Part shown: one piece after another, positions 20,105 through 53,722 of the stretch
Position numbering within the stretch: the stretch's first letter is position 1
Layout: every line of letters begins with the position of its first letter
Assembly: GCA_000442125.1 (NCBI GenBank)
Contig: KE546971.1
Span: forward strand, 1,676,583 to 1,740,582
Length of the DNA stretch: 64,000 nt
Origin: Opeltia flavorubescens
Lineage: Eukaryota > Ascomycota > Lecanoromycetes > Teloschistales > Teloschistaceae
Reading direction: 5' to 3'
Position numbers and translations under genes: made by a program
The notes under the pieces: model-generated
The model's database searches: none
Seen by the model: the letters and a program-made list of their open reading frames with translations, nothing else
Told to the model about the DNA's origin: nothing

Positions 20105-20463
20105 GTGTGTTTGCCCGAGATATATTCACGACAATACAACCAAGATGCCCTTTCTGGTAATCTCCCTTCTCCTTTCGAAGAAGAAGATTTGAGCAAGGGG
20201 AATTGGGGAGAACAGGTCACGGGAGAGCTCAGAAGCATATCGGTAAAATCCGGAAAACAGATATTTCTCGATAACGCCGCTACGATTTACTGCAAAACAG
20301 TGAACGAGGGCGACCTTATAGTGAAGGCCATTTCTTTTGTTGCTTCTCAGATTATGACACCTACAGTAATCGGCAGAACCGATCGTCCCTTTAAAACTTA
20401 ACAGCCGTAGTAGGATGCCAGGCAAAAACCGGTCACGGCGTCCTATCATACCATCTTATTTAG
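20105..20463 (+). pseudogene. TDRPFE-family decayed copy A
   Basis: The frame contains NWGEQVTGE, VKSGKQIFLDNAATIY, LIVKAISF and IGRTDRPFK. It aligns along about 95 codons with copy D (41590-42192), which reads NWLCVLREK, LVKPGK, LDKAAVIHG and SRTDRPFENLTAAVG. After RTDRPFK the frame breaks. One base fewer in an A-run near 20393-20397 shifts the reading, and the family core (LTA-VVG-QAK ... LSYH) continues in the next frame. So this copy has a frameshift as well as substitutions. The family's function is unknown to me. The conserved C-terminal core and the repeated presence in this window show a multicopy gene or element ORF. Confidence 0.55.
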
Positions 20464-23400
20464 GTTGCACGCCATAGTCCTATGCCCCCAGATGCTACCC
20501 GTCTGCACTCGTACCTGTGCTATTCAAAAATTGTGTGAAGCCCCAGCACGGAGTGTGGGATACTGGCCTGGAAAATAAAGCTCTCAATGGCTACGCAGAT
20601 GGATAATCCTATTTCCTGTTCCATGGGAATGACGATCAATAGTGGCTAAGGGTGCATAATTTCAGGATATATTTCATCACGTCCTTCTTATTATGGTCGC
20701 TATCATTTGATAAATGGTGTTTCCAAAAAGCTCGCAATTGCACAACTTAACAGTCATTTGCCGATTGCGAAATTTTATACGAGGGAAAGGCGCAAATCCA
20801 CGACAATTCTGCGATATATACGGTATTCGTATATCTCTTTCGATTCTTGGGTAAAAAAAGTCCAAATTTATTCGTGACGAATCTTTTTACATCGGAAAAC
20901 TTTCAAACTGCAAAATCAATAAAACGGTAGAAAAGCTCATACCAGAATTCCTATTCGTCTCGCAATACACTGAATTCTCCACTTCTTTCAAATCTGAGCG
21001 ATCCATTCACCAACTGGCCTCCCTGCGCCCAAAAGTAGCCTACATAATCTCAACAGAGATATGAAGCTCCTCCTCCTCCGACATTATCCCCTCACCAACC
21101 AGCCCCTCACCCCCCAAAATGGGCTCAAGTCCGTCTTCGAGTCATTAGTCGCCTCTATGTCGTCCGGGAAAGTCAAATTCCAGTTGCATCTTCCTAGATG
21201 GAACAATTTGAGAGGAGAACTTAAAATCCAGTCTATTGTGAAAATCTTATGATAACAATCGATAGGCTTCGACAAAGCATGGAATGATCGCAAGGAGATG
21301 AGTTTAGAGAGGTACCAGACGTAATCGGTGTGCTTCAATATGAGATCATGGTTATGGGGATCGTGCAGGACCCAAAATGAAGTGTAATATCAATGACATC
21401 CAACGGACTGCGAAAATACACGAAATCAGCTGCCGAGCAGATATACCACCTCTTATCATCAGAATTACCACTTCAGTAGCAGACATTCATATGTGCGGTT
21501 TACATTCACTTAACTCGCACTTGAATCGTCTGCCACATCGTAAAACCCTTTCACAGACATGAAAGTCACAAAATCACGAATATCTCAAGTAAAATTGGTA
21601 AGGAAGAAACATTCAGGGGAAAATCTATATCCAGACATTGCGGCGTATTCGATCAACATGGCAACCTCAATTGCAACTGAGAGACTAGTCCTTGTGTGAT
21701 ACGCCTGAAATCGAGATTACTATTTTTCATGAATAAGGATTTCGCCTCCGGCTGTGATGTATCAAAATTTTTGGTCACGATCGCAAGATCAGCGCCTGTG
21801 AGATCGATCTCCGTACATCTTACAATAAAACGTTATGTTATGCTCAATCAATTCTCAAAGACCATGATCAAAGCGTCCTGGTATCTACCTGCCCGATCGC
21901 ATGCAGGGAAAGGATACTACAGCGCTAAGTTAAGCAAGGGATTGATGCTGTAGAAGGTATCAAGTGTAACTTTGAAACAGCCCTTTCCATCCATTCTTGA
22001 TATCAAGGACAGAGTTTCGTGCCTGATAGTTACTTGACCATAGTGGTTGGATCAAATCACAATACTATCGAACACCATGTCAAGTCAAACCATCTGCATT
22101 GACAACTTTCGCGTTGGAAAACTGCTATTTACCCTCTCCTTAATCTGTGGATCATAAATTTCACTCGGGCCCTGAGAGAATGTCAAACACCAAATTACAA
22201 GATCTAGTTGAGATACTAGAGCAAAGAGGCTTTGGATCTTAGCTTTACAGTGACACCAATTCTATGACAGGCATCATATACGTGTTTTTGCGTCGAGGAT
22301 GCGCCTGTTGGATACATTTCATCCTAAAAATATCCGAAGCCGCTCTGTACATCGCTTTCGATCGAAAACTGGGACTGATACCGATAGGTGGCATAAAACC
22401 CCGCTAAGGACTGGCCGCGAGGTATTCACTTTCATTTTGACACTGGGGCCAACCGCTCAGCTCAAACCAGACTGGTGAAAACGATTAGGTCTCGTGTCAC
22501 TGGGAAAAACTTACCTTTTTCAATGGCTCACCACACTACATACAAAACAGGTGAATTGCACTGAAGAGAACAGAAAGGGATAACGTGGTTCAATATTTAC
22601 TAGATATTGAGCATTGGGGATGGTACGGCAACTATGGATTAGGAGAAGGTCATACATTCTCACCCATACCGAAAGATAATGCGAGCAGGCAATAGATACC
22701 CGTGACAAAGGATTCGCTGCAAGTAAGTAAAACCAAAAGCCTTCAAACGCATTGGGAAATTGAACGAGCAATTCTAGCCCCTGATTGAGGAGGTTACCTC
22801 AACAAAAAGAACTCTGTCGATACGCACTTAGAATCGTATAGGAAACGTGCTCAAGGCGAGAAAATTACTGCGATTACTACGAAAGGGTCGTACAATGCAC
22901 GTTGGCAGGGATCTAATGAATACCCCCGGTCGTTTTTCGCTAAAGCTTGGTTGATGACAGCAGAATATACTGCCAGGTGCCTAATAGAACCGATATTTAG
23001 AGTGAATTACCACGAACTCTCTCGGGGGGCGTCTATTTGGGACCAATCAAAATCCAGTCACCCTCACATCCCAGCCTGCCGAACGTGGAGCAGGGTGACA
23101 AGACATTATTCTTTCTTCATTTTTGAGGCTCCGGGATAATTTTGAGAGGATTGAGGCCTGCCTGTCTTGGGAGAAGCCGAGAATGCGTTCCGCCAAGGTC
23201 AAACCATTGGTGGCCTTGCGTCAAGATATCTAGTAGGGGAAACCTAGTTCGGATACCAATACACTACAATTCTTTCTCCCTAGGAATCTTTGACCCCTTT
23301 GTATTTTCAAAAAACTATTCTCAATTGTGGATCATATATTTTTGACTGAGCTAGTTTATACCGCATACGCAGATCCAGTCTTGATCGTTCAGTCGACAAC

Positions 23401-24278
23401 CTGCAAGATCTGACAGAGTACGAATGATATTCCCGAAAATGATAGACATCTACGATAGATCAGGCTAGAGAGGGTCATGAATGATACTAACTCCGTCTTC
23501 CTTACACCCATGGCTATAGGGTCCAGTATCGGACCATTGATCGACCCACTAGAGAGGGTGACTCGGGATTATCCATGAGATCATTGAAATAATGATCTCG
23601 ATCTTCACAGGCCTGACCGTACACTTCGAAGGGATGAAAGCTTTCGATGGGAGATCTTTGTACATCAAATCAGCCTTGCTACTTGGGAAAAAAATGGATC
23701 AATGTCATCACAACAGTGAGAGAACGATCGTGACGATTCTGGGCGGCCATGAAATTGGCAAACGCTGCGGGACTATAAAGATGGCCAGCTGTTTTACGGC
23801 GAGAATGTATCAATCATGGCGCTGATATAGTTCGAGATCGTATCCAGCAGTGTCGAATGCTGTTCTTTCCAGGATAATAGCGATTGGAGCGACCAGGTGA
23901 ATGCACACGAGCGGAACTAGTATGCCATGGTGAACACGCTCTCGGCCAGGCGAGACTTGCATATCACCAACGTGTGGAATACCCTGATCATATACCTATG
24001 CTTCTATCTTACAAACCAACGTTCATCGAGTCGAGGATATAGTATACCTATATGGACTTACGAGAATCTCTCATCACAGTTAGAAGCGCGAGAGGCCAGT
24101 GAGCCGAGCACGGAGTCCTCGATTGTAGACAGCGTAGCGAGCTACAATAATACGAGCACGCTATAAGCTCTACGTAAGGTCAAAGACGGAGCGTGACCAC
24201 CGACGACAGGTGGATTTTCTCGGGACTACTCCGCGATGATTAGAAGAATGGTGACAGGCTCATGTTGGCGTTACAAAT
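20464..24278. other. Gene-free or unrecognised stretch
   Basis: A weak 68-codon plus-strand frame ending at 21061 (FLFVSQYTEFSTSF...) and short runs near 21.7, 23.1 and 23.6 kb are the only protein-like pieces. None has a motif I recognise. No RNA gene or repeat structure was seen. Confidence 0.35.
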
Positions 24279-24713
24279 TTGATGGCTGAGGCGGCTGTCC
24301 TCGCATACCGGTATACCATTTTGATAGTAAATAGGGATTGCAAGGAGCATAAAAATGGGAACCCGAATTGGCCATCACCGTTCATTGGTGAACAAAGTCT
24401 ATCTATGGCAGCTTGCTCCAATGACTCTGAACCGTATCTAGTTCACGATACATATACTACTGGGCGCGCAATCAATTCCGTCCGTGGTGCCTACCATAGG
24501 CAAGGAACTGCTGCTCGTTGGCCTATCAGCTGGGGTCGACCCGCAGTTGGCCCTCCTTCTCCTCCAATCCAGCCCAACAATCAAGCAAAGTCAAAAGATT
24601 GACGAGAGCAATTGGACGAGAGCTCGGTAATGGACCTTTTCGTACCAGACGTTTCAAAAAACTCCATGAAAGACAGCGGCGTGTGGCCAACCATTAGTCG
24701 ATCAAACTAGAAG
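24279..24713 (+). pseudogene. Decayed coding frame with Pro-rich segment, unidentified
   Basis: One plus-strand frame runs about 144 codons with a single internal TGA at 24600-24602. It includes GNPNWPSPFIGEQSLSMA, a Pro-rich stretch RPAVGPPSPPIQPNNQAK, and after the stop LDESSVMDLFVPDVSKNSM. The Pro/Gln-rich part followed by a charged part is reminiscent of gag-like element proteins, but I cannot assign it. There is no splice site or signal peptide. It may be a chance long frame. Confidence 0.3.
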
Positions 24714-26726
24714 CGGTTGGCTAAATAGAGCTCTGGGTACCGACAAGCAGACAGGCTATTGAGAAAAGACACTCGAAAGATATAGGGAAGGCAATGATCA
24801 TGCTATAAATCCAAAATACCAGCCTACTTAAGGTATGAAAAGCTCGCCACTCCACTTCGAAAAGTCTTGATAAATGACTTGGGAATACAAATGGTTTTAT
24901 ATACTACGCTACTTATGAAAACGCCGAATTTTCTTTTCAATTGCACGTATGTGCATCAAAAAAATGCACCAAAAACTTGCATAGTTAATGTAACCTTAAG
25001 CATATAAGAGCTTCAATCTGTCCTTCTCGCGAGCAAAAGGGATTCGAGCGCCGAAATCATGGTTATCTCCAATAGATATCCATGTCTACTTCCTGATCAA
25101 GAGGATTGGGGAAGCGGCGATATCGGCCAACTCTGATCGTGTGCGAAAGGTCGGGTAGCCAGGTATAGCGCAAAGAAATTTTAGGAATGCCTGAGTAGAT
25201 TTCACGACTCTGTCTTTTTCATGGCAGTCCTCGTCAATTAGCGACCCCGGACCTCAACAGAATCACAGTCAAGATTCCTCTAGTAAATAGGGTTATTGCC
25301 CAACACTCCCATTGCACTGCAAACCATCTATTTTACGACGTACAAGACTTGGGTCATCTGGTCGATGGACCTCGGCCTAGATGCGGCTGCTCAACTGAAC
25401 GGGATCTGTACAATTATTCGAGTTATCGGAAGAGATTGAGCAGCGGTGGAAGACTCTAACCAGGCACATTCAATGCAACAGAATCTTGGACACGTAGGCA
25501 AGTCTGCCACATCACGAAAGACGACAATGCAGATGCATGTTAAGACTTGATTGGTACTTAAGTATGTATTAGACTCCCTTACTCTACCACATCAATGCTG
25601 TAGCGAATTACTGCAATCCGAAGATGAATACGGTAACTTTACTTGGGGGAAAGGAGTTGGTTCAGATTTGGGAACTCAAAGATCTCCAGACGAGTACCTT
25701 CATCGCCATACTCTCACCCAAGACAGTATGATACCAGAAGAACTGAATGTTTGAGAGCATATTTGACGGATTTGATGCCTACATCAAAATTCGATTTTTT
25801 CGCGCTCAAGCTGGTGACACGCTCGACCAGATTACAAGGCACGGAGGAATGACCACGACTTGAAAGGAGATGAGGCTGAATGGTCATCAAATTTATCGCA
25901 TGCAGCTCTTCCGTCCTCTATACATCATTGACTTCATCCATTGTCCAGGATTACGTGGATAATTAGCAGTCATACAAGTACCTATCCTACGAGCCTATAC
26001 ATTCTCATAAGCGATGCTAAGAACTACATTGAGGCTGAACTCCCGTTCTAGAGTCGCAACAACCACCTTCAACATGCCATTCTTCATCGAAATGCCAAAA
26101 TCTCGTAGACCGAAGCTTGCGCCGTACACTGTACTATTCTAGAATATTCCAGACGTAGAGGTTTTTTCGCCCCAGAGCATTGGCGTCCACCTTCGCCTTC
26201 CTCACTTGGAACAGGCAGCTTCCAAAAGTCAACAAGGTCTATATTATTTCTCAATACGCCAATTATGACTGAGCGGAATGTAATGGTCTCGAAAGAAAAA
26301 GTAAAATGTCGTAGAAAACTCCTGACACTTTCATCAATCCCTTGCAAGATCGAATAAGATTACAGCAGGGACGGAGCTACGCGCCTAGATCCCAGATATT
26401 CACTATGTCTAGGGCGGGATACACGCCACGTTCCAATGAAGATAGGAAACCCCCGGCTAGGCTGGAAATAAGGACAAGAATCTTATGATCGAAATTCCGC
26501 TGAAAGATTTCTGGAAGAATTAGAGTGATAGAGCTTTGAGAAAGGTATCGAAAATATTGAGAAAGAGGACTGATATCATTGTTTCACTAATGCCCAGTGT
26601 TGAATAACCAGTAAATCTCCCTTTCTCACCGGCTGGGAAAGGAATCATCAAATGAGCTGTAGCCTCTTTCCGAATCATCAATGATTGCGCTATTATATCC
26701 AATCTACACCATCCAAATCATCATAA
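24714..26726. other. No supported gene
   Basis: Open runs at 25551-25852 (plus) and 26084-26347 (minus) lack motifs. No other feature was seen. Confidence 0.45.
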
Positions 26727-27086
26727 GTAAAGTCCCCATTCTCCCCTTATAAACCTCTACTATCTTCCCTTCCCCAGCCATCCTCCCAACATTCACCGGA
26801 ATGGAAGGACCTGGCCCAAGTTCGTCTTGAAGTCAATGCTCACCACCCATCGTTCGGAAGGTCAGAGTTCGGTTCTCTTCTCATGGATGAGATCGCCGAC
26901 TCCACTTACGCCGTACCATTCAATCCCTTCGTCACAGATGGATCCGCCTTCGCCGCAGAGGAATGCGCCTCTATCGCAAAGGTATGCAGGAAATTCGTCG
27001 ATTGGAACAATGTCTCTGCATCCACGGTTGGTGATCGCAGTGGATTTCAAGGCAAGACCGGTTTGAACCACAATGAACAGCTCTAG
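26727..27086 (+). pseudogene. Unbroken 119-codon frame, possible orphan exon
   Basis: From after a TAA at 26724-26726 to a TAG at 27084-27086 the frame is fully open, but the only internal Met is late. The peptide is coding-like: SPEWKDLAQVRLEVNAHH, then EFGSLLMDEIADSTYAV, PFNPFVTDGSAFAAEECASI and CRKFVDWNN. A pyrimidine tract ending in CAG near 26780 could be an intron acceptor, which would make this the last exon of a gene whose upstream exon I cannot find. No family is recognised. A surviving 3' exon or a decayed gene are both possible. Confidence 0.38.
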
Positions 27087-27572
27087 GGGACGTAAAGCAG
27101 ATGACTGAGGTAAAAATATACTCAGCGAAGGATTAACAGGCGCGCAAAATACGGAGCAGGCTCTACAATGACAACTACTTCCGTTACTTTATCTGATTGA
27201 GTCAGTGAATCACTAAATCCGCCAAGGCTTGGTTTTCAGGATGGCAGAGAAATGATGCGGACAACATAGGATACTCGATACAAAGCGAAGGAGTCAATCG
27301 CGGATAGATTTGATTGCTCAAATAGCTCGTATCGAGCTACGGTAGCCATCACGGCCGCGATGAAAAGGTATGGATACGAATACTTTGATAGTTGCAACAT
27401 TCAAGCTAATTTCTAACCACACTTTTGACCCCTATCCTTCTGCCTTAGTCTTCATCACTTCCAATGTAGCCAGCGAACAGTGTCCCAGTATTTCCCTATC
27501 ATTCGTGATGATCAGTCGAAAGGTATGGAGAAGGTGAAGGTTTGCTTGACAAGTCCTGCTTGCGGGAAGAAG
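27087..27572. other. Intergenic, 3' flank of the minus-strand 408-residue gene
   Basis: No frame of interest. The part nearest 27572 is probably the 3' untranslated region of the minus-strand gene. Confidence 0.5.
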
Positions 27573-28799
27573 TCATTTGGGTTCTGGAATTTGTATGCGC
27601 TCAAACCATAGGCGTGTATTTTCGTTCAGCTTCTGGATGATTTCTGCGCCTTTGAAACACCATTGTGAAGCAGAAGATCCATCCGGCATCCGGTAAGGTT
27701 TCACCTTCTTGAAATCACGATCCGGCCCAACGAGGCGGCGCACTTGATCTGATCCAAGCAGTGCGACCGGGCCCACCAGCATAGGCGTTGTATTTAGGTA
27801 GCTCAGATGATTTGGTATTATCGAGCGTAACCTACTCCTCATAGTATATTCGCTCCATTCGTCACCAAAGAGTTGGTGAGCCTCCTGGAGTAGTTCTTTC
27901 GGGGTGACCATGTGAAGAATCCCAACATTGCAATAAGTACCTGTATCGAATAAAAATTCTCTTGCCCATACAGCGTAATCGTAGGCTAATTCTTTCTGCT
28001 TGGTGAAATACAAATCATTACTTGTTGGTGACCAATCACTAAACAAGTCCGACAGAATTCGTTCAAGTCGATTGGCCTCGACTTCAGGTTCGTCGGGCTC
28101 GAAAAAGGCTCTGATAAGGCGCTCCTCCGTACCTCCTTTCAGGAGGTCTACCTCATTGTCATGGACTTCTCGATCTTCCGTGCCTGTGCTCAGAATTGGA
28201 GCCTTTGGATTGTTAGATTTCTGGGTCGACTTTGACGCTCCTTTTGGTTTCGATGTTGAATCTTTCTCTATGCGAGAGTCCAGCGTTACCATATGACTCG
28301 CCTTGGGTTGAATGCCAAGTGTAACCGTAAGCAGTCTTGTGACAAACATGAATTTGGTCTCCACCATCTGAGTGACCCAAAATTGAGCCGACTCACTCAG
28401 TCGTATTCTATCGAACTGGGAATTCAGCATGCGATTCTTGATTTCCTCCTTGATCCCCATCCTAGTAAGAACTCCCTCCCAATTGTCATTGTCTTCTTGA
28501 GCACTGCCAACAGATTTAATAAACCCTTTCACAAAATCAAAGAATTCCGACTGTGGAAACACAACTGAGGCTTGCTCGTATCGCTCAAAGATGAGAGACG
28601 CAGCGATATTAGTAAAACCGAGGAATTCCAAGGTCGCCTTGCTCTGAATGTATCGGGGAATCCTGGTAATTACCTCCTCGGAGGATGATGACAACGACGG
28701 GATGGAATCGGCCTTCAATCTTATCCAAGATTCATCGTAATCATGATCACTAGAGAGCGCTGCTAAGGCCTCGTCCGTGAGAGTCGCAGTACGCATCAT
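27573..28799 (-). CDS. Hypothetical protein, 408 residues, soluble
   Basis: This is the longest uninterrupted frame outside the right-hand island: 408 codons, no intron needed, ATG at 28799 (a second Met codon follows directly, so translation could start at either). I do not recognise the family. No signal peptide or membrane segment is apparent. Residues about 1-170 look alpha-helical and acidic/hydrophobic (for example SEFFDFVKGFIKSVG and WVTQMVETKFMFVTRLL), with a Ser-rich patch SLSSSSEE near residue 37. Residues about 180-215 form a Lys/Ser/Thr-rich, probably disordered linker (KDSTSKPKGASKST). The C-terminal half resumes ordered sequence (KELAYDYAVWAREFLFDTG, LGSDQVRRLVGPDRDFKKVK) and ends in FERIQIPEPK. 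It stands alone between decayed segments. Length and composition strongly support a real gene; function is unknown. Confidence 0.8.
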   Translation of the reverse strand: MMRTATLTDEALAALSSDHDYDESWIRLKADSIPSLSSSSEEVITRIPRYIQSKATLEFLGFTNIAASLIFERYEQASVVFPQSEFFDFVKGFIKSVGSAQEDNDNWEGVLTRMGIKEEIKNRMLNSQFDRIRLSESAQFWVTQMVETKFMFVTRLLTVTLGIQPKASHMVTLDSRIEKDSTSKPKGASKSTQKSNNPKAPILSTGTEDREVHDNEVDLLKGGTEERLIRAFFEPDEPEVEANRLERILSDLFSDWSPTSNDLYFTKQKELAYDYAVWAREFLFDTGTYCNVGILHMVTPKELLQEAHQLFGDEWSEYTMRSRLRSIIPNHLSYLNTTPMLVGPVALLGSDQVRRLVGPDRDFKKVKPYRMPDGSSASQWCFKGAEIIQKLNENTRLWFERIQIPEPK

Positions 28800-30714
28800 G
28801 ATTTATTGGTCAGCGATCGAATGTAACAACAAAGGCCAATGATTAGCAAGGTGGATTGTTAACGAGGTGATCGATATCAACGTAGAGATGTAGAGTTAAA
28901 ACAGAATTCGAAAGAGTTTTATGGTGTTGCAATAAAGGTTTTGCTGCGATGGGTTTGAGAAGATTGACCAGACATGAAGTACTGTACGCGATGAGAGTAG
29001 CCGAAGTTTTCCCGCAATGACGCCATGTCCGGCAACAATGCGCTCATTGAACCGAAGAATAGCTGCTTTAAGCAAGTTATTAAGAATAAGAAAATGGATC
29101 CAAGTAATGAAGAGAGATTCCATCAGGACCCTCGTTCACCCAGATCTCTGCCGATTGCAACAACAAATGTGATAATTCATCTACATTATCTATGGAATTG
29201 GCATCTTTCATACCTCCTCGAATACAAGATTTTGTCACAGCAATACGGTGCATGGCTCAATATGGTGCCAGTCTCGTTGGCCTTATTAGATTTTCCATTT
29301 TCAGTTATTATAGATTCACTTTGGTCATTGTTATACTTTCTCACTCCTCTACCCTATGGCAAGTTATGCGCACTGCGTATCTACTAACGTATTAATTTCT
29401 CCTTTCGTCGCAGACTCGTATTAACGAAAATGTATGATGGGCTGCGCTGGGTTTGTTTCGGAGCCACTCCGAAATAAAACATGTGGCACTAAATTTTGTG
29501 CATTGGATTCTATTTAAGAAACTATATACACACAATTTCACATCGCGTCGAACACGACCCGTGCATCTACAACCAAAAACCTCAACGCCGACTTCAATGA
29601 TAGTGGCACTCAGGAAGTCGATGTCGATGATATCTCCGATAATTATATATGTGTCTCTCAATTGGAAAGATCTGAGATCTTACTCGACTCCAATTGTGCA
29701 AACTTCATCTTTCTTGGAAGAAGCTGTTTGTGCCTTTATTGACTTTTCTGCTCCTCCTATCATGACCTATATAATCTGTGGTAAGTAGTTTTGACGGTGA
29801 AAGCAAAGGAGATCTTAGGGTGGATACGAAATGACCAACGAAAGAGTCGGATTTTCTTGAGCGTATGTGAGGCGTGATGAATTGAGAGATTTCGACCCTC
29901 TCATACAATGGCTAGGGGAAAGATTGAGTGGAAACTGTATCCGAATCGTCAGTTTGTCCGTTAATATGAGATCAAATGATTCTGAGCGTTGTTGGAGCGA
30001 TTTAAATCAACCGAAGGCCAAAAGTTGGTCACGGGTTTAGAGCTATCCGGTGCCATGATTGGCAATCCATCTTCTGATGCTATCCCTGGTAGTAAGGTGT
30101 CTCCTACTGGGCTCGGCAATATGGCTATCTCTCTTACCATCAATGCTATTAGGACAGAAGTCATGCTTTACGCCGGTAATATCTGGCCGTGAAGGACATC
30201 TCAATACTATTAAAGATGTCTTACGAAGTCATTGAGAAGGGGGAGAACCATAAGTAAAAATCAACATGGGAAATCGGCCACTTTTGATGCTTCTCGGCAC
30301 GAAAAATTCTGGTCAGCCATATGCCCCGACGACCGATATTAGAAGGATGTCAGAAAGAAGCTGAGCATTATCCGGAATTTCTTGAAAATGAGACTTAATC
30401 ATAATGGATCCGTTGCAAAGCACGAAGGGAGACTCGTCGGCTCTGAGTGGTCACGAGATCTATGAACCAAGCGCCTTGAACGAACATTCCAAAATCTAAA
30501 GCAGTTGGCTACGAAGAAAGTGCTTTTATTGGAGGTCGTCCTGTTTGACAGGTTGCTTTTCCACAAGAGTACTATCTTTATTTGGAACAAGTAGGTCGAT
30601 TCAAAGAATTTACGATACGATATTCTGACATCACGTACACAAATCTTAACTTTCACCTGCGTCTGAAGATTTTCGGTCATTCCTTTTCTTTGTATGTACT
30701 TTAACTCTTAGCTA
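28800..30714. other. Promoter side of the 408-residue gene, then no supported gene
   Basis: About 28800-29000 should hold the promoter and leader of the minus-strand gene; no clear TATA box was found. Open runs at 29025-29387 and 29989-30192 (plus) have no defensible motif. Confidence 0.4.
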
Positions 30715-32234: not shown

Positions 32235-32561
32235 TCAGTCTAAAATCTTGATACCGACCCCATAATCCCCCGGCTCAGCAACCAGCGCATCACTAATACA
32301 AACCACGGGTCGAGTCACCAGGATATGACCTTTATACTCCGCCAGTGGTGCAGCCGCCACAATATCGGGCATCATAATCTCGAAGACAGGATCCCAGGAT
32401 TAACAATCCACAAATACTATTTGCGGAAGTTTACCGTCTCTCAAATACCCCGGTTGAACCACCCGACGGTCTCGTAATTGGCATTGACTCTGATCCACGG
32501 GATGCGAACGATTCCTCAAGCCCGAGACTACTTGCAGCAAAGTACATGAAGACCTCCAAGG
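32235..32561 (-). pseudogene. Decayed coding frame, probable gene 3' part, unidentified
   Basis: A minus-strand frame of 109 codons with one internal TAA ends at a TGA at 32235. Peptide pieces are LRNRSHPVDQSQCQLRDRR, GYLRDGKLPQIVFVDC, then after the stop SWDPVFEIMMPDIVAAAP, LAEYKGHILVTRPVVCI and SDALVAEPGDYGVGIKILD. Hydrophobic strands alternate with turns as in a folded enzyme domain. No family is recognised, and the 5' portion is either lost or in another frame. Confidence 0.38.
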
Positions 32562-33179
32562 TTAAAATGTGGCTCTTCATGAGCTCATGTTTTTCCGGTC
32601 ATTGGGTTGTAATCCCCCGACTCCATGTCCAAAGACCGACAATCATGGCAAGAGCCCTTTTTTATATGCCACGAAAGAATTGTGTCTTAGCAATAAAGAC
32701 AGGGGAACAGGGCCACTAGCTGTTTTCTAGAACGAAGCATGGATTCCTTCCAACCATCACGAATAATGACCAGTGATAAAAATGCTCCAGAAAGTCACCA
32801 AACTCAAATGGGAGACTTGGAGGGTCAAGATTGCTCATATTAACCTCTACTGCAGCGCTATTCTCTGGTACCAAAATTAGTGCTCATGGTATGACCGAGT
32901 CACTAGAAAACCCATCTTCAGGATCGACCGTCTTTCTTTAACCAGCCGCAGAGTGCAACTTTTGTTTATAATAAATAACAGACTGCCCCTTCGAAGTTAT
33001 TCCATACTGATAGCAGATACGTAACTCCTTTCACAGAGGATTATATATCACTCAGCAATGTTACCCAGGTGGCTGTTCTCTGCGAGCTTTTGAATTGGAT
33101 AAATTCAATGCAGCATAAGGCCGGATGAGGGATTTCGAAATGTCTAAAGGTACGATCGGCGAAGAAGACCGAGGAGTGA
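32562..33179. other. No supported feature
   Basis: No motif-bearing frame or RNA gene was seen. Confidence 0.5.
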
Positions 33180-33420
33180 ATCTACGGCTTTAAGACCGCT
33201 GCAATCCACGGCAAAGCTATGACGAAATCCGGCCTCATAGCTCTACCTATATCATTGCCAGATAGTAACAGCTGTATCAGACACGCAAACGGATCATACT
33301 TTAGAGAAACTCAATGCCACAGTCGGTCGTCAAGCCTGAACCGATCATGACATTCTGTCGTACCATATCACATTTGTCGCTAAGGAGAGTCTTCGCCCTG
33401 AATCGGCGTCCGGGGAGGAT
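33180..33420 (+). pseudogene. TDRPFE-family decayed copy C
   Basis: The core at about 33290-33372 reads TDHTLEKLNATVGRQA, a TGA stop, then LSYHITFVA in the same frame. It matches the family core TDRPFE-LTAAVGHQAR...LPYHII-VA of copy D at 14-16 positions by eye. Upstream, CTGCAATCCACGGCAAAGC mirrors the AAVIHG segment of copy D. The copy is heavily substituted; the 5' part is hard to trace. Function unknown. Confidence 0.5.
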
Positions 33421-33546
33421 TATGCAAATTTCACGAAAGTCCGGGTGTCAAGCTTAGACACGATCTTTGGAAATCCGACCCAGATAACACGGAAAAACCC
33501 AAGTGTCCGGGTCGCAATGCTCTTCTCCACTCTTATGCAGCAATGA

Positions 33547-33864: not shown

Positions 33865-34326
33865 TGATTTATTTCACAGGGGGCTATGTCTGTATGAGCC
33901 AGTTTCAAGCGTCTTTTGACATACGGAAAAACCACGCCATACTAAAGACTCTCAAGACCCCCCTAGAAATTATGAATGCGAATAGGATGATAATATCAGT
34001 TGATATCTAACACGCTAAAGAAAGCATTGCTACTGACGAGAAAATGGCTTATAGGGTATCGCGTACGAATTGTACTATTTGGTCGAATATAATCTCATTC
34101 CTCGACAGCTACTTACTGAATATGCTTACCAAAGAGTTTGACTGTATATCTCCACCCATAGTTCATATTCCGTCGTTTGTTTACTTTCACATTTAGTACC
34201 TAATGGTTTATAACGTGGGGAAACCGTGTCAGAAGTGAACTGGCAATTGGGTGGCAGACACCGATCACGGTATTCGATAAGACGACACCTTGAACTGACA
34301 GGTGATGGAATTATAACGTCTCTATA
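33865..34326. other. Left flank of the MITE, otherwise unrecognised
   Basis: Apart from the tail of the possible methyltransferase-like frame to about 34009, nothing is recognised. The TA at 34325-34326 is the left target-site duplicate of the element that follows. Confidence 0.5.
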
Positions 34327-34407
34327 CAACAGAGTTATTATTAAGTTAATTTAAAGCGCAACCATAGCCGGCTGATTAAGCGGGGTTTCGGGCTTATAGT
34401 ACGCTTG
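34327..34407 (+). repeat. Left terminal inverted repeat of the MITE
   Basis: 81 bases. The outer 62 are identical to the reverse complement of 34808-34869, with three mismatches in the remaining 19. Confidence 0.9.
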
Positions 34408-34788
34408 CTTTTAACAACGATAAGTAACTATAGAATAATCTTATCCTTCTAAAATTTGCAACCATAACCTGTTACTCGATTCCATATATTGTTTACGAGT
34501 TTCGGATAATTTAAGCCCGAATTAAATGATTAATAACCGTTTTAAAAGGATAGCTTTTAGATTTTAAAAATCTGATGGGGGATCTACGCTTATCGTAGGC
34601 TTATCTACCTGAAAACGCCGCTTGATCTATAATCGTGTAAAGTTCTTTTATTTAAGGACGTGCCGCTCTACGGAATCAAATTTTTATAAGCTGATACTTT
34701 TATATAACGTGTATTTCTTGTGAATCAATTCGATTGCAAAGTTTAAGGAAAATTTGATTGAAATTGGGGGTGTTATTAACCGTTTATT

Positions 34789-34869
34789 CAAGCGTACCAT
34801 AAGCCTTAAACCCCGCTTAATCAGCCGGCTATGGTTGCGCTTTAAATTAACTTAATAATAACTCTGTTG
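34789..34869 (-). repeat. Right terminal inverted repeat of the MITE
   Basis: Inverted partner of 34327-34407; followed directly by TA at 34870-34871. Confidence 0.9.
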
Positions 34870-35230
34870 TAAGCAGAGCTTATAATTTGCGAGATTAGAA
34901 ATCGGCGATGATTCGAAAGTTCTATCGCAAATAACTGTCCCATTTTTCTTCACTTCGTCAACTATACTTCCCTTAAAGGGCGGGATGTACCTTACTCAAA
35001 CGATCAATGATCTTCGTGAGCCTGTTCCATCAGGGCTAGGAACTCTGATAACCGAAGTTTATGGTGTTGAGCAAAAGTATTTCAAGGTCTCCCGATTCAC
35101 CGTTCGTCGGCGAGAAAAGCAGAAATGATACCCCGACAAAAGGTCAAGATCCTATACGGAAGGAAGCCGACGTGTTACTCTCATAGAATGCAGACAACAA
35201 TGTCTTACTCATCTCAAAATCAACATAGTA
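34870..35230. other. Right flank of the MITE, no gene
   Basis: No frame or motif was seen before the decayed frame starting at 35231. Confidence 0.5.
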
Positions 35231-41374: not shown

Positions 41375-41589
41375 GAATGCGAAGACAAATTGGGAGGTAG
41401 AGAAGGCCTCGAGAGAACAGGATGTGTCGATGGAGAAGGAGTCGAATGATTTCGAATATGGTCGCGACGCTTCAAGGAAATAATCAGAGCCAGACTGACT
41501 GCAGCAGGGCATCCCCAATAAAAAACATGGTGCGACGCCTGCCTCGAACGCCTGCTGCAGTATCTGGATCACATGTGCCGTGTCCACAT

Positions 41590-42192
41590 AGAAAGGATGA
41601 GGAGCTACCAGCTCTGCGGCCACACGAGCCTGCCAATTGGTTGTGTGTACTCCGGGAGAAGGCTGGAGAAAAAAACCTTCATGGAGCCCTGGTGAAACCC
41701 GGAAAGTAGATAAATCTCGACAAGGCCGCCGTAATCCATGGCATAGCTGTGTACGAAAGTAATCCTGTAGCTAAAGCCCTTTCTCTCGGTGGTTATAAAA
41801 CTATAACGCCCAAGGCGAATAGCAGAACCGACCGCCCCTTCGAAAACTTGACGGCCGCAGTAGGACACCAAGCACGAATTACTTATGATGGTTTGCCATA
41901 CCATATTATATCAGTCGCCCGATGGAGTCCCAAGCCCCCGGATGCCCTGCGAGAGTACTCGCACAGCTACCATCGCGTGGGGACGCAAGATCGTAGCTAC
42001 GGAAAAGATGATCTAACGATTACTTCACTTATAATTATATATCGAATCGCTATCAGACTTACTTTCTTCTTAACAAAATACGGATTCAAAGGACCCCTTA
42101 TGTGGAGCCGGAGTCATTATATCGACTGCGGTCATGAAGTGCTGAAAATTCTCGACTCGTATTCTAAGGGACTCGTTAGAGAAGTACAATGA
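41590..42192 (+). pseudogene. TDRPFE-family copy D (best preserved)
   Basis: One frame runs from about 41590 to TGA 42190-42192 with a single internal TAG at 41707-41709. In order it contains HEPANWLCVLREKAG, HGALVKPGK, the stop, INLDKAAVIHGIAVYE, PVAKALSLGGYKTITP, SRTDRPFENLTAAVG, HQARITYDGLPYHII, SVARWSPKPPDALREYSHS, a hydrophobic run near LIIIYRIAIRLTFFL, and a C-terminal YIDCGHEVLKILDSYSK. Copies A, C, F and G share the TDRPFE core; A also shares the upstream NW, GK and LDKAA blocks. I cannot name the family. A small secreted RNase-like effector, a transposon ORF and a host-gene duplicate all remain open. No signal peptide can be placed because the 5' end is lost or frame-shifted. It lies directly downstream of the polyketide synthase relic. 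Confidence 0.55.
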
Positions 42193-45394: not shown

Positions 45395-47850
45395 ACAGAG
45401 TGAAGGGATATTGATGGCAGAGACCCAGATTTCGATGAGGACGTACAAGGAGGACCGTACGGTTCAAAGGGCATGGCTAAATACGGTATTCATCGCTACA
45501 GAATCCGTGCACCGAGCAGTCAATAAAGCGTTCGAGCTCATCGAGCAGCAGTATCTCCGTCCCATCTCTGTCGTCGTACCTCGGTACATAGAATACCTCG
45601 ATTCAAGGGGGTTATCCATCCGCCGATGCTTCTAGGGCCGAAATCTGACGGAGTATTACCATGTTCGAGTACAGGAATACTTTCATGTGAGTCAGATATA
45701 TTGTCCCAATAAAAATTCCGAAAAGTATCTTCACGGGTGATAGAAAAGGTGTCATACTCAGGAAGTTTGTAATCGCTTGGTGGGAAGGCCACCTTCATGA
45801 ATATTTGAACTAATATTTCAAACCTACTTACCCTCTTTTTTCGGAGCGCATATTCACGCTTTCACGCTCTATTGGCAGTATGTTTATCGAGATGCATTGC
45901 TCGGAACATCTCAAATTCGACGTAATAGATGATACTGCATACGACGGGGCAGCTGCTTAACAGTTCAGCTACGAAGAACGAGTGCCAAACCACTCGTAAT
46001 TGCGCCTAAGAATCTCGATGACCATCTCGATAGCTTGCATGAGCTAGCTCTACAAGTCGAAGACGGTGGCCTTCGGGTTCAACTTATCTCGGACATTCTC
46101 TACATAATGGATTGATTACGTCCTTCCCATTATCACCCCATTCTTTGTTATTAATGTCTCTTTGATCTTATTTGAAGTCTCAAACCTTACCATGGCGAAA
46201 AACTCTGCTAATAAACGTCGTAAGGCAATGAAGAAGCGCCTTTGCCTAATGGCCGCAAATCACCATCCTCCACGAAAATGGAGGTGCTCATGGACATCCA
46301 GCGGTTTGGGTGGACGTAAGGCCTCGCCGGCCACGGCGTGGTACCTGGCGTCTACGCCAAGAGTTGACGGAGGTGGAGGGGATCTCGTCGGTCCTCCGCT
46401 TACTCTGTCGCCTCTGTCTCTCTTGTCTCTTCTACCTCTATAGCTTTCATGATCCTTCTCATTCCCGTCTTCATATGTCGAATTGAGGTATATTTCAGAT
46501 TGTATTATTTCTTCTTGGGAGCTATGTTAATATCTACCTTGTGGATCAGCTGTCACGAAGTGACTACGACATCAATCTGTATTCTGCATACCACATTTAT
46601 AGTTCCTACCGAACCACGATTTTCAATCATGGCAACCTCGACGTCGACTCGTTCTCCGAGACTATTGCAATCAAATCCTTCTTTCCACGAGGTGGTATTA
46701 GAGTCATGGGAGAAGCACCGCGAGCTTGCCAAAAACTACAGGATTCTATCTTAACTGTGACGAATTGTTGATTTGTTCTTTTATGTCGAACTGAACTTTG
46801 AGCTCAATCAATTCTTCCGGATAAGTCTTTTCTAAGCAATTGACATGGCTGTGTATTGTCTCGCTCGAATCTTGACATCTACATTTTTCTGCATCTCACT
46901 TTTGAATAGCGTATTTTCTGACTGCCATCGATACAAATCTTGGTGTCACGACATATGAGCATTGTTCCAGCACAGTCATTTACCACCTCACGTTACGCTG
47001 GATTAAATAAGAACAACACGTTTCCAATGACGCATACCATCCGTCGATTTTGTCCCGTTTTCGTTGTTTCCGTCGTGCTTTTGATAACAATTTACATCTC
47101 TTCTGTAGGTCCTGGATACATATATTCTTTGCGTTCTACCCTGTAGGTGCGGCAGATTGCCCGGGGCCCCAGGTCAATCGCGACAGGTGGTCCAAATCTC
47201 ATCTAGCAAGTCAAAATTCTCTTTAGCATCGGTATCACTGCTTCTACGCTATTAGTATGGCTTTTATCCATTCGAGGGAACGGCTTGGACTGGCTGAATG
47301 TGAAAGAATTCAAAAAGAGATTCCATTTGGCAATGCTACGGTGGGAACATCGCCAGTTCCACATCAGCAGCCTATGCCGCCCCCCTGGTCTACGGAAGGA
47401 GCGATATGATCCCTTCAATAAGCAGATTAGACATCCTGCAAAACCGAGATAGTCTGACGAGCATGACTGAACAGTCGCCAAGACTTACTCCTGTCACTCT
47501 TTTGCTCTGGGCGGATAACCAAAGATGGTTATCATTGACATTTTTGGTCGCGGATTAACGAAGTCTCTAGAACTTCGAGGATGAAGTAACACACAATTTT
47601 AGCGAAATTTACACACCTTTGGCTGATTTTTTCCGTTGTCTACAATTCAGCAAGATTCTACTAGCATAACGGCGACGACAATCTGAAGCGGACGAAAATT
47701 CGAGACAAGTCTTATTTGTATGTCGCTAGAGGAGGTCAGCTGGGACAAGGAAGATGAAATGCATCATTTCAAATAATTGTCGAACAATATCAATTCCAAC
47801 CCCCAGCGTAGCAGCCCTCAGCTAGACTATCCAATCCTCTAGCACAATGA
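45395..47850. other. Probably decayed element DNA; one short G/C-rich open run
   Basis: An 83-codon run from ATG 46192 (MAKNSANKRRKAMKKRLC, then Gly/Pro/Leu-rich) lies in a locally G/C-rich patch at 46280-46400. I see no family and cannot call it a gene. The remaining sequence shows short, unrecognised frames. Confidence 0.3.
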
Positions 47851-48156
47851 CTAATCCATCAGCCATATGTTCCTCCGGCTCAATCATCGGGGTATCATCC
47901 CTACAACCCCCCCGTGACGCAACCGTCAGAATATCAGGCACCAGGATATAGTAGAGCGGCTCCAGGTATTCATACCCCTTACAGACGATTTGCAGACACT
48001 AATCGTCTGTCAAATGCTCCATTTGCACCTCCCCCGTGGGCCCAACCACCGCGCCCAGCGCAAAGCAATCCCGTTCAGCCTGGTGGATTAAGGCAGCCAG
48101 GTCCGACATCAAATCCCTATGTACAGGGACCTGGACAGCAGCAGCAGGGGGCATAA
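47851..48156 (+). pseudogene. Pro/Gln-rich gag-like fragment
   Basis: A 101-codon open frame between stops has no early ATG and is extremely Pro/Gln/Tyr-rich: QPYVPPAQSSGYHPYNPP, QPSEYQAPGYSRAAPG, FAPPPWAQPPRPAQ and YVQGPGQQQQGA. The translation has consistent protein-like low complexity that the other five frames lack, so it is probably coding in origin. Pro/Gln-rich segments of this kind occur in gag proteins and in some RNA-binding or transcription proteins. Without a zinc knuckle the assignment to a retrotransposon is a guess from context (other gag-like relics within 4 kb). Confidence 0.38.
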
Positions 48157-48711
48157 GGGGCGCAAGCCAAAACTGATGGACGTTCACGATATCATACATT
48201 ACTACGGTTATACTACTTCTTCAGATACTGCATATTGACCCAAAAGATGACTATACTGATCATCTATAGCGAATGTCGCCCAATGACAAGCTATGCTATA
48301 TACTCACTAAGCTTATTGCTTCCAATCAAATCCTTTATGTCTTCGAAGGAAAGACTCTTGAAGCGATACGTCGATACGTTGATTCCTACTCATAACGATG
48401 ATTGAAGTTCAACCCAATGTCCTTATCAAGATCGAAAAGAAAGCCAACGTCAACAGTAAAGTGTGGAATAAGGTTTATCTATATTCGAATCGCAGACTAG
48501 ATATATCATTGAATAGCAAAGGAAACTATCTGTCTGAAGACTAGATGTCTGATAAATTTCCACTGCTGGATCGAAGGCAGCATGTATTCCCTGAGAAAAG
48601 GTCTCTCAAAATAAGTGCTTCGGAAAATAATAGGGAGATCAAAATTTTAAGGGCCTACTATCGTCAGTAGTCCTAATTTGCCCCACGTCACGATTCTTCC
48701 GGTGCCTATGA
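48157..48711. other. No supported gene
   Basis: A possible continuation of the preceding relic (YILTKLIASNQILYVFEG near 48.3 kb), with multiple stops. Not assignable. Confidence 0.35.
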
Positions 48712-48990
48712 TAACCCGAACGGAACCTGCAATAGAGCATTCTGTCAATCCTCTATCGTATACGGTTTCCAGCGATTGGCTTAGTATACCCGATGTAACC
48801 CGGATGAAACCTGGAATGGAGCCGTCTATCAGTCTTCCTTTACCCACTGTTATCTCCGATTAGGTGACTATCCCCTAGGTCACTCAATCGGGGACCCGGA
48901 CGGAAAGGCCGACCGCGGAATCTTTAAATTTTCCCTCGCCTAGCACTATTAATGCTATACCCCATATCACTCCATCGGAACCTCCGATGT
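48712..48990 (+). repeat. Three degenerate tandem units of ~84-97 bp
   Basis: Three related blocks start near 48712 (TAACCCGAACGGAACCTGC), 48796 (TAACCCGGATGAAACCTGG) and 48893 (GACCCGGACGGAAAGGCC). Each is followed by an (A/C)GAGC-CTATCA-TC-CCT-like tail. The first two share a frame, giving TRTEPAIEHSVNPL and TRMKPGMEPSISLPL; the third repeats the pattern less well (TRTERPTAESLNFP). This suggests either a minisatellite or a protein with ~30-residue repeats that has decayed. Spacing is irregular (84 then 97 bases). Confidence 0.45.
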
Positions 48991-50283
48991 CGACTCATAG
49001 GTGATGAGACGGAGACAGTTCGGTCGTGCGTGTTGCTTGGCGGGGTAGAGGAGAGGAAGGCGAGATGATCGTTAGATCAGAGTGTTGAGTGAGAAAGACT
49101 TGGCCCAGGTACGAACTTCGTGATCGCAAATATTCTAAGTTGTTATCTCCAAGATACAATCAAGCATTGCGGGCACGTCAAACCTCAGCTATACCTGCTC
49201 ATGCACCAGGAAACACCTCCAAGGTAGGATCCAAAGCGACGCGATGATCATGTCATAAATTATTGCAGCCAGCATCTCAATGGTCACATAATCAACCATC
49301 GCCAGCCCACAGTGGCCCTTCGGTTATGGCTCTCGAAGATGATATACATTTGAAGACGTTGCTAGGCGTTCGCTTCTGACTGCTGCAGAACTTTCGGTCC
49401 GAGTCACGCGTAGCGCTGGAACTACCGTCCGTATCCTAGTAACAACAATTTCTACCTTCACCTACACGAAGTTAATATGTTGTAAGGCTTGTTCTTTAAT
49501 CATTTCGCTTCGCTACCCCACCTTACTCGCATTCAAACTATATTCTTAGTTACATCCATCTTCAATTGATATTCTACTCGGCGACTACGAATCCGCCCCT
49601 TGGCTCTTCGAAATGTTACAATATCGGCGCCATCAGAAATTATCCAGCTGGCTTACTAACCCTCGGAATCCAAACTAATCGATTGACTGCCTATAATTCC
49701 TTGTTGAACCTTCGCTCGAAACACCACTTGAGTATTACTTCTACTTAAGGTCTTTACATCATAGCCGACCCGCAGCTTTTTCTCACTTTTGTCAATAAGT
49801 ATCACGCGACGAATTAGAAATTCTTCATCCGTCAGCACGGCCCTTTCCACTCATCTTTATCAATAATTCTTCTCACGTAATATGCCTATTATACGCCACC
49901 ATCCACAGAAACTCCGTCTGGCATGGTCGGATAGGTCTTCAGGAAAGGAATCGGTTGCCGTTAGGATTTACTACGCGAGGAAAGCAAAGACCAGATACGA
50001 GACATACTAAGACGTATATTCTATACCGTTCCTCGACTAGGGTATTCCAGTGATGACAGTCCAGGAAGAATTTTCGATACTGTTATCCGTAGCTTCTGGC
50101 AGCTCACTTTCACAACGTACACCAAACGCGCTTGCATAAATTGTAATTTTTACGACCGCGATCCAAAGACCCAACCGCGCAAGGTATCCTTGCTGAAGAG
50201 GCCTTCGAGAGCTGCGATCGATTCGAACCTTGTCGTACAAGCGCTCTCGCTGGAATACTGTTGAAATGTCACGGCCTTACTTC
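48991..50283. other. Decayed sequence, unassigned
   Basis: A short frame around 49.1-49.25 kb (YELRDRKYSKLLSPRYNQAL) looks protein-like but is broken soon after. Nothing else was recognised. Confidence 0.35.
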
Positions 50284-50379
50284 AACTATCAAACTGACCG
50301 CCCTTTTGAGAAGTTTGTTGCAACCGGTAGGCATCAAGCCCGGGTGTGCCATGCTTTGCTCTCGTACCATGACATGTAG
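50284..50379 (+). pseudogene. TDRPFE-family decayed copy F
   Basis: An open 31-codon stretch before a TAG at 50377 contains TDRPFEKFVATGRHQAR followed by LLSYHD. It aligns with copy D (TDRPFENLTAAVGHQAR ... LPYH) without gaps. Flanking sequence is too diverged to trace. Function unknown. Confidence 0.55.
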
Positions 50380-50717
50380 GGCACTGCTTTAGATTTTACA
50401 AGTTGTGGCGTCTGTACATTACTCCCCATAACAACTGATAAGACTAGATCTACTAAGTCGTAGTTTTACTGGTCAACAGATATTCACATCTCTGGTGTTA
50501 GTATACATCTCTTTCGGCACAATCAAAACTATGAGGGTGTTTCGTTTCACGACAGCTTTCAGGTAAGTTATTAAGGGACTTTACCAGATCCTCACCTGGA
50601 AAAAAGACCCCGTCGATGCCAGGCTGAAGCGTTTCTTTTTTTAGTATGTTTTAAACATCACTGCGAAGATCATTATTCTTTTCGGCAGGTATTATTTTCA
50701 TCTCATCATCAACGATA
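50380..50717. other. No supported feature
   Basis: A gap between two relics; no frame of note. Confidence 0.45.
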
Positions 50718-51476
50718 ATGGCGTCAGATTTTACCGCCGTAAACCAGCAATGATCGTCTTCTCTACCGCCAGGACTAGGTCCCGTGAACGTCAAACGCTC
50801 CGCTTCACCTCTACCGTCTGGATCTTCTAAGATGACTTCTGCCGCGAAGGGTAAACAAAAACTTGTGGTCGCAAATACTTCAAGTGAATCTGATCCCGCG
50901 TCGTCTGAAGAAATCGAAGAAGAAATTCGGGATTTTCAAGAGTCGGAGGAAGAAGTCGAGGAACTGCCGCTCCCTACTATGATTCCGAAACAACGACGCC
51001 GAGCCCCAGCTACAGGTCTCGATCTTATTCGAAAAGCTGGATTCATAGCAGGGCATATCGGTACCTTGGAAGAATCAATGGAAGAGTTACGCCGTACGCT
51101 AGAAGATGGTAGCTACGAGCGCCGCGTACTTCAAGAATAGGCGGTCAAGTTTTTAGTGGATGCAGATCGTAAGACGCTTCAATGTGAGCTCAATGGCTAA
51201 GCCCAAGACACGTACAGAGGATGGCAACGCCGAGGATGCCTACACTTCGAATTGCCAAAAAGAAATTCGTCTACCTCTTATTCCTTGGACCCGACCAAGT
51301 CTTTAGAGTTGGACTTGCATCCTGTCACGGTATGGAAAACAGTAAACCTGTGGAACCTAACAGAGCTTTCGTTATCATTAAAGTCACTTCCATCTATATT
51401 GAAAATGTCTCAAATCTTGTTCCTATTATCTATATTCCTCGACCACCATCTGATTTTTCGCTCCGTCAAAAGTTGA
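50718..51476 (+). pseudogene. Decayed gag-like ORF with acidic and coiled-coil segments
   Basis: One frame starts at ATG 50718 (MASDFTAVNQQ, then TGA at 50751) and continues SSSLPPGLGPVNVKRSASPL, GSSKMTSAAKGKQKLVV and a strongly acidic EEIEEEIRDFQESEEEVEEL. Next come PKQRRRAPATGLDLIRK and a heptad-like IGTLEESMEELRRTLEDGS. The frame then has a TAG (51138-51140) and a TAA before reaching 51476. The order of Ser/Pro/Lys N-terminus, acidic block, basic linker and coiled coil is typical of retrotransposon gag. No frameshift is needed across ~400 bases, so point mutation seems the main damage. A host nuclear protein is an alternative. Confidence 0.42.
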
Positions 51477-53548
51477 CAAGGACAATCATCACGGGAACCA
51501 TCCTGCTGCTGTGGTACATCGAAGATGTACCAGATGTGACATCTCATCATTTCCGATCTCCTCAGTTGCTGTTAGTCGTTCACATCCCGAACATGCCGGA
51601 CGACTCTACCTAACGCTAGAGAGTGAAGTTACGACCAGGATTACGATAGTAGTCTAGGCGCAGTCCAATCGGCATCAAAGTAAGTTCATCAACCGCAACA
51701 CTGGTAACAGAAAATTGGCCAAGTCTTTTCCCAATGACAACACCTGCAATACTCTCACCCAAGCCTATTGGGCCAACAAGTCCTCTATGCTTAAGCAGTA
51801 CGTCGAACGTATGTTATTTTTTCCTAATCGATTCGCCCGTTTCCAGCTCTGTCGTGCAGCAATATGAAGTAGTTGATAATATACACTTCCGTTTCATACT
51901 CAATGCACCGTATCTGGATTGTCCCTACATATCATATGCTTAGCCTAGGCCAAAGAGAATATACATAGTGGAGAGAGTTCAAAACATAATGAGTATGTTT
52001 GAAGCACAATAAGACTACGAGTCCGTCAAGTGTGGGCTCACGGACTTCTGATATTTTCTTCAGCTCCACATGCATAGACCCGATGGGTCTATTCCAATTC
52101 TTTTTGTCCCTCAGAGATCGGTTATTTGCACCCATCCTGCCGATTTCACTGTCACTAGTTTTTCGATTCATGAGTTGCTGGCTTGAATACTGGATGTTTC
52201 TATGATTTCTTGAACACTATTTTCGAATTCTAAGCAAGTTCGAGATGATCCCCGAACGTGGCTCTAGGAGAAGCGTGTAAAAATGCCGAGTCATTAACAT
52301 TGCTCGTGGTAGATCATCCATCACTGCAATCTCATGTAGGGAATCTTGTGCGAAGCAATCAGTGACCTCGACCATCTATATTTGAGTCTCCCCGATAATT
52401 TTCCGATGAATTCTATACATACATTCATTGCAAGACAGGCCCGCTCTCACTTCAGTAGCCAGCCCCTAATATAAGAAACCCTTTCTAGGGTCGCCGTACT
52501 GGAATCGATTCTTGTCTGCGTAAAGATTCCGGCGATCCTTGATGCGCTGAATACCGGGCCAGCAGAATTGACTTCAAAGATTGGTACACAATGAGTTCAC
52601 ACGCCGAGTCAGCAGCGAAATATCACGTTATTAATGTCTCATAAAGGTGCCTTCTAGCCTTTGGGGCTCGACGACCTTCACACACTTCCTTAAAGCGTGG
52701 CCTGAAGCCTTGATTCGCTATGGGGCGAGAGAGCGATGAGCGTAACCAAGTAGGGCCGAGATTGTAATCAAGCTCTGGTGTCGCTGCAACCGGCAAGCTG
52801 GATTTCTGATATCGCGTTGGACCTGATTCTTTATACCATCATTCCCAATGAATGCGCCGTTCTTTAGAGTAGGTGGGCACGCTTAGACAAACTTTCAACT
52901 TTCGTGGTTAAGCATGCGAAGAGACATGCTATAAAATGGCCGCTAATCTCGTGTACCTCACATTGGATGTCCATATCGAAAACAGTCGACATCTATGGTT
53001 CCTCGCCAACTCAGGAGAGGGATATATCAAGAATTACACGTTGCAGTTACAAGCTAGCTTCCTGGGATTTGATTATTACATGAACGAGAAAGAGGCAAGT
53101 AGTAGCTTGTTAAAATCCTCTATGAGTCAAGACGGAAATGAGCGGCTGTCAGTATTGAAATACCTTCTCCGTCCATCCTCCAGCCTTTTTCGTTTTCTTT
53201 CATTGCCGTGCCTACGAATCTCTGGTTTGAAATCATCATTAGGTTTTCACTAGCTTATAATCATGTATAGCGTTGCTTTGTCGAAAACCCACCATGTCCG
53301 GCAACATGGTACCCTGAGGAATGGACCTCGTTTGACCATGAAAACTAATCATTGACGCCTCATTTTCCAAATGTCTGCCGCAAATATTGTGGCAAAGACT
53401 ATTGGAGAAGTTTCAATGGGGAGCTCCTATCAAGTCAGATCAGATGATGACTGCTAACAGGTTTCATACGAGATCATTACAACGTGCAAACAACAGTGCA
53501 GTCTCTACGATCGTACTCAGCCACGATTCATTTTGAAAGCTTGTACCA
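51477..53548. other. No supported gene
   Basis: Open runs at 51221-51613 (overlapping the preceding relic in another frame), 51734-52205 and 52936-53253 show no motif. Confidence 0.42.
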
Positions 53549-53722
53549 GATCGCCAGGCGGAAAAGTTGACTGCAGCGATTAGCCATCAAGCTCGCGAAA
53601 GCCACGATGTTGCTGCTCTGTTACATATATCAGGCTGTCGAAAACGGTCCGCGCCTAACATCGGCCCCTCGAGATTATGCTCATCGCTGCCATCGAAAAC
53701 ATTGCGTAAATTCAGATCATAG
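53549..53722 (+). pseudogene. TDRPFE-family decayed copy G
   Basis: A 57-codon open frame starts in the family core: DRQAEKLTAAISHQAR, then a His-Asp and ALLHISG. It matches DRPFE-LTAAVGHQAR...LPYHII of copy D. It continues open past the core without clear similarity. It is the closest of the short copies to the consensus in the LTAA-HQAR block. Function unknown. Confidence 0.5.

Follow-up and report, generated by a model that had tools for sequence, protein, structure and literature searches.

A decayed gene family with a His-Cys box in a gene-poor block of Opeltia flavorubescens

The window studied here is a stretch of 64,000 nucleotides from the lichen fungus Opeltia flavorubescens (contig KE546971.1, hereafter C7; C7:1676583-1740582 in a 34.4-Mb genome of 23 contigs), and it raises the question of which kind of gene left five plus-strand sites in it that encode versions of a TDRPFExLTAAVGHQAR core followed by LPYH or LSYH. 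A first-pass annotation had taken them for relics of a multicopy family without a known name. A name can now be given: a His-Cys box (PF05551) lies downstream of the core, and the best relatives in the PDB are I-PpoI. The sites are probably pseudogenes of one nuclear I-PpoI-type (His-Cys box, His-Me finger) endonuclease family, that is, a dead cluster of free-standing genes which would have arisen by local head-to-tail duplication. The window is poor in genes, with a guanine-plus-cytosine (GC) content of 0.44-0.47 across six slices, and open frames are more numerous and longer in most 10-kb stretches of the C7 flanks than in the window.

Homologous copies in the window and on a second contig

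Judged by their DNA, all five plus-strand sites are homologous: c20 (20228..20622, TDRPF core at 20378), c33 (33158..33530, core 33289-33339), c41 (41677..42012, with the best-kept core, from 41827), c50 (50174..50385, core only, TDRPFEK at 50293-50313) and c53 (53545..53789, LTAAISHQAR at 53567-53596). Together with a copy on contig C3, they form the six strong copies. We searched 288 kb (the window, 195 kb of C7 flanks and 29 kb from contigs C3, C2 and C1) with leave-one-out DNA profiles, each built without the copy under test and controlled on shuffled DNA. All five sites reported earlier were recovered in the same orientation (E 3e-48 for c20, 2e-44 for c41, 8e-22 for c33, 1e-14 for c50 and 4e-10 for c53), as was the C3 copy (5e-50), while on shuffled DNA the six-copy profile did no better than E 0.057. 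Moreover, a frame-blind BLASTN comparison aligned c20 with c41 (20242-20495 and 41691-41945, 66% identity, E 1.7e-10), and the C3 copy aligns with c20 over 342 columns at 65%. A three-copy DNA model (c20, c41 and c33), run on the window, picked up c50 (E 8e-12) and c53 (E 3e-4); it gave no copy at E<=1 in the 195 kb of C7 flanks, where the best E of the six-copy profile was only 0.77. In the window the six-copy profile added a weaker plus-strand site, c07 (7218..7318, E 5e-6). This broken frame appears to span the last part of the core region and the first part of the box (LSHRCHES at 7295-7318), and it is the weakest and least certain of the copies. With regard to the blocks upstream of the core, GK and LDKAA are common to c20 and c41 as had been claimed; the NW block did not hold up, since its spacing differs and the flanks of the copies show no likeness (0/30 comparisons at p<=0.05).

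The likeness of a short peptide motif might arise by chance, and single-copy pairwise alignments of c50 and c53 were indeed mostly no better than shuffles. The leave-one-out profiles, the shuffled controls, a codon pattern and the Pfam matches described below refute this explanation for c20, c33, c41, c50, c53 and C3, and we give it next to no credence. The codon-degenerate TDRPFEK pattern matches the 34.4-Mb genome perfectly at exactly three places, c41, c50 and C3, and with one mismatch at a single site, on C1; the reversed control pattern has no match. The C1 site scores 0.6 bits and lies in a different frame of what is presumably an isopropylmalate synthase gene, and was dismissed as chance.

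Five whole-genome protein searches with pieces of the six copies recovered only the five window sites and the C3 copy, the latter being a further member found outside the window. These searches matched down to 30-40% identity and miss more diverged copies. The seven copies are a lower bound, because c53 was recovered only by the query containing c53 and c07 by no whole-genome protein query. DNA queries against the genome gave self-matches only.

The His-Cys box that follows the core

The open frames alone gave no match, and the box emerged only once the relics were aligned as DNA. This alignment extends beyond the TDRPFE...GHQAR...LSYH core into a second block common to c20 (20529-20603), c33 (33417-33512, divergent), c53 (53661-53780) and C3, and the aligned DNA unit comprises both core and box. 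The core would thus be the part of the protein ahead of the box, and the following block its active-site and zinc loop. In leave-one-out tests the box profiles recovered C3 at E 6e-14, c20 at 9e-6 and c53 at 2e-4. The Pfam model for the His-Cys box of homing endonucleases (PF05551) scored 29.6 bits for C3 and 28.0 for c53 against a cut-off of 27, with matches spanning only about 33 of the 131 model positions; a shorter c53 piece without its first residues stayed under the cut-off at 24.4 bits.

Searches of the PDB pointed to the same protein. All five sequences that the four-box profile matched at E<=10 were I-PpoI (best E 0.068). The core-plus-box profile matched 19 sequences, the top five being I-PpoI (E 8e-5 to 6e-3) and the other 14 antibody chains at E 0.24 or worse. 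Used singly, the c53 box returned I-PpoI 1evw as its sole row (E 0.88), and a 60-residue C3 piece returned nothing at E<=1.

The residues agree with this assignment. In I-PpoI, H98 and N119 form the active site and C100, C105, H110 and C125 bind zinc, according to two accounts (PMC9223047, PMC9548176), and S97 and E114 are given as conserved in the group in a third (PMC9587614). The C3 box, with the pattern S-H-x-C-H-x3-C-V-N-P-x-H-x2-W-E-x4-N-x5-C, has all eight of these residues. The c53 box has six of them (H98 present, N119 absent), and all four zinc ligands are found in both C3 and c53. Of the same set, c33 retains H110, C125 and N119, and c20 retains C105, H110 and N119, while the zinc ligands of c41 are not recognisable (41953-42012).

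Other searches returned no relative. c41 had no match in Pfam or in the PDB (at the E<=0.001 level), and its frame had none at E<=1 among 17 candidates from a set of 5.8 billion proteins, where only lengths of 0.55-1.75 times the query were compared and a longer relative would be missed. This set does contain proteins of Teloschistales: the protein at 13208-13777, used as a control, recovered named relatives in lichen fungi of this order, the closest (82% identical) from a sample called Letrouitia leprolyta, which one source places within Gyalolechia (PMC9907504). The viral and prokaryote collections held no confirmed relative and phage DNA none. An AlphaFold model of the c41 open frame, made with no alignment, was discarded (mean pLDDT 33.8). 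The strings TDRPFE and VGHQAR are absent from the searched literature, and among the matches listed for His-Cys box endonucleases (lichen, freestanding, His-Me finger, PF05551) no such cluster is described in titles and abstract openings.

Coding past and decay of the copies

The copies diverged as coding sequence, as judged from the alignments, because their differences concentrate at third codon positions. With the c41 frame as the ruler, the mean pairwise differences among the six copies at codon positions 1, 2 and 3 were 0.41, 0.40 and 0.62 (permutation p 2e-5), and position 3 differed most in all 15 pairs (0.45-0.78, at least 0.61 in 11 of them). The c20-c41 pair, which was found frame-blind, gave 0.36, 0.31 and 0.50 (p 0.003); it weighs more because c50 and c53 had initially been chosen by amino-acid likeness, which favours a third-position excess. 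In the box block the four copies c20, c33, c53 and C3 gave 0.41, 0.36 and 0.68 (p 2e-5) in a frame chosen by eye, with no third-position excess in the C3-c33 pair. Tested in their own phases, the pairs c20-C3 and c33-C3 gave p 0.12 and 0.74.

Such distances suggest that the copies diverged far while still functional, and so speak for an old, diverged family and against a recent burst. The strong past amplification proposed in the first-pass annotation is therefore doubtful, as third positions differ by 0.45-0.78, whereas its description of a decayed, once-coding multicopy family is borne out by the third-position excess and by the damage to the copies. A stop or frame break is present in all six strong copies. 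c41 has a stop at 41707-41709, inside the part aligned to c20, followed by an open frame (41710-42189) with no start near its front; c33 has a stop and frame breaks, c53 a stop and a frame break, and the frames of c20 and c50 are broken. Aligned to c41, the other five strong copies (c20, c33, c50, c53 and C3) each have one or more length changes not divisible by three. The profile match of c41 stops at 41974, while c20, c33, c53 and C3 run on.

The search for an intact member found none among the copies, nor a start codon, and the guess that this was an effector-type gene is therefore without support; among the three guesses of the first-pass annotation, "an ORF of an unknown element" comes nearest. 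Repeat-induced point mutation is unlikely as the cause of decay because the GC content of the copies is 0.47-0.52. Elsewhere on the contig, 10 kb at C7:1586583-1596582 have 23% GC and a TpA/ApT ratio of 1.23, the pattern expected from repeat-induced point mutation, and the relics of the window differ from it.

Origin of the cluster and its place among known systems

The six window copies lie in the same orientation within 47 kb. This arrangement, the long purifying selection and the small number of copies elsewhere would also fit a tandem cluster of now dead host genes, in which the His-Cys box fold served a cellular job and the copies arose by local duplication without being selfish. On the other hand, all six strong copies are dead, the five whole-genome protein searches showed no intact host copy, and the box has the catalytic and zinc-binding residues of a nuclease, so that we consider a host gene quite unlikely. 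The core starts of c33 and c41 are 8538 apart and those of c41 and c50 8466; a tandem repeat some 8.5 kb long was rejected, since the flanks have no homology and the other spacings misfit. The relics of the window show a strand bias, with 15 direct and 2 inverted self-matches at E<1; shuffled DNA has 3-4 matches, and matches to the genome lie on mixed strands. The region C3:196178-322816 shares seven separate short matches with the window, all on the plus strand and in differing order.

A second explanation assumes a larger DNA transposon that included the nuclease gene, with the sites as dead transposon fragments or a tandem multimer. KolobokP, the one non-intron case in the literature consulted, offers a precedent, with I-PpoI-like nucleases riding on transposons and forming direct multimers (PMC9587614), and the copy on another contig would fit as well. 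However, scans of 63 window frames (out of 114 with at least 90 codons) and of seven frames of L008, a stretch near the C3 copy, found no transposase domain, though a decayed transposase could be missed. Moreover, the flanks of the copies share nothing: of 30 comparisons, covering up to 600 bp on either side for 15 pairs, none gave p<=0.05, and no shared terminal direct repeats lie within 600 bp. We regard the transposon explanation as unlikely. Few copies elsewhere and the lack of shared flanks are what small genes, and not a long element, would lead one to expect. The family, in turn, matches a known kind of nuclease and not a known transposase or polyprotein.

The copies may also have come from group I introns of ribosomal DNA (rDNA) that carried homing genes into the chromosome arm, where the intron parts decayed. 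Nuclear His-Cys homing genes are indeed placed in rDNA introns in two reviews (PMC3679873, PMC9548176). Against this, no Rfam group I intron or ribosomal RNA (rRNA) was matched in the window at E<=5 or near the C3 copy (L008, L042 and L043) at E<=1, though intron RNA of great age might escape detection; such an origin seems very improbable.

Several results weigh against the assignment to an I-PpoI-type nuclease cluster. The I-PpoI match is limited to the box (profile positions 44-78 of 80), and the core by itself has no known relative. Only two of the six scanned copies match PF05551, with no match for the c33, c20, c07 and c41 pieces, and the c33 box alone is weak (leave-one-out E 0.33). No counterparts were assigned to C41, H134 and C138 of I-PpoI; the PDB alignment stops short of C41, C132, H134 and C138. 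When c41 is left out, c20, c33 and C3 show no significant third-position excess (p 0.078). Finally, C3 groups with c20 (support 73), which misfits a purely local array. The best compromise between a local array and a mobile element seems to us to be a selfish nuclease whose cluster has died.

By analogy with I-PpoI, zinc held by C100, C105, H110 and C125 would stabilise the enzyme fold, a dimer would bind the target site, and the H98/N119 site would cut both DNA strands; repair of the break from the chromosome bearing a copy would then copy the gene. Homing-like spread of this kind may have taken place, and local head-to-tail duplication in the gene-poor block may have built the cluster before the death of all copies, with one copy on the other contig. 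Free-standing PF05551 proteins are annotated in other ascomycete genomes, and the copies here may have been free-standing as well. We further consider, as a doubtful extension of this reading, a transposase-free I-PpoI-like lineage living in lichen-fungal nuclear chromosomes outside rDNA and introns, whose own cuts were repaired from a neighbouring copy and so left head-to-tail copies. Local multiplication of a cut-and-repair type has been proposed for KolobokP multimers (PMC9587614).

The window contains further features. A 369-bp relic family at 3030-3398 has full matches of 363-369 bp at 65-79% identity on C2, C18, C19, C13 and C12, a shorter one on C4 and, at the protein level, one near the C3 copy. 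A direct pair (32264-32464 and 47833-48033; 62% identity, E 1e-18) shows codon-like differences (p 0.03) and a proline-rich reading, and a palindromic element at 34309-34887 (99-nt arms, 92% complementary) has an 81% copy at C13:67555-68103. In the gene-poor block, a minus-strand open frame of 409 codons (27576-28802) has no Pfam match above the cut-off and found only itself at E<=0.001 among 6054 candidates from the 5.8-billion protein set. At 61950-63540, on the plus strand, lies a gene with a main frame of 430 codons and no Pfam match, the front of which we take to read like an LYAR-type zinc finger protein.

The relics would thus preserve an I-PpoI-type nuclease as a fossil in the arm of a fungal chromosome, as against the rDNA-intron setting that the reviews cited above give for nuclear His-Cys homing genes. 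The large divergence that the copies accumulated while functional may allow the pace at which such genes invade, survive and decay to be measured across Teloschistales genomes.

A His-Cys box endonuclease of the I-PpoI type is known from slime-mould ribosomal introns. The Opeltia family shares with I-PpoI the spacing of the box over 29 ungapped columns and, in C3, the eight checked residues; it differs in the unmatched core, in the lack of a detected group I intron or rDNA and in that all copies are broken. Likewise, the C3 and c53 pieces exceed the gathering score of PF05551, over about 33 of 131 positions, while four copies do not match. KolobokP of animals, which combines a DDD/E transposase with an I-PpoI-like His-Me nuclease in direct multimers (PMC9587614), has in common with the relics a nuclease of the I-PpoI type outside rDNA introns and several units in one orientation; here the host is a fungus, and no transposase or shared flanking repeats were found. 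Homing endonuclease genes in general pass through a cycle of invasion, decay and loss, as two sources describe (PMC3943268, PMC13405050). The stops and frame breaks that follow a coding past in the Opeltia copies resemble those of degenerating homing endonuclease genes, but here six relics lie in 47 kb of one contig and not at one target site.

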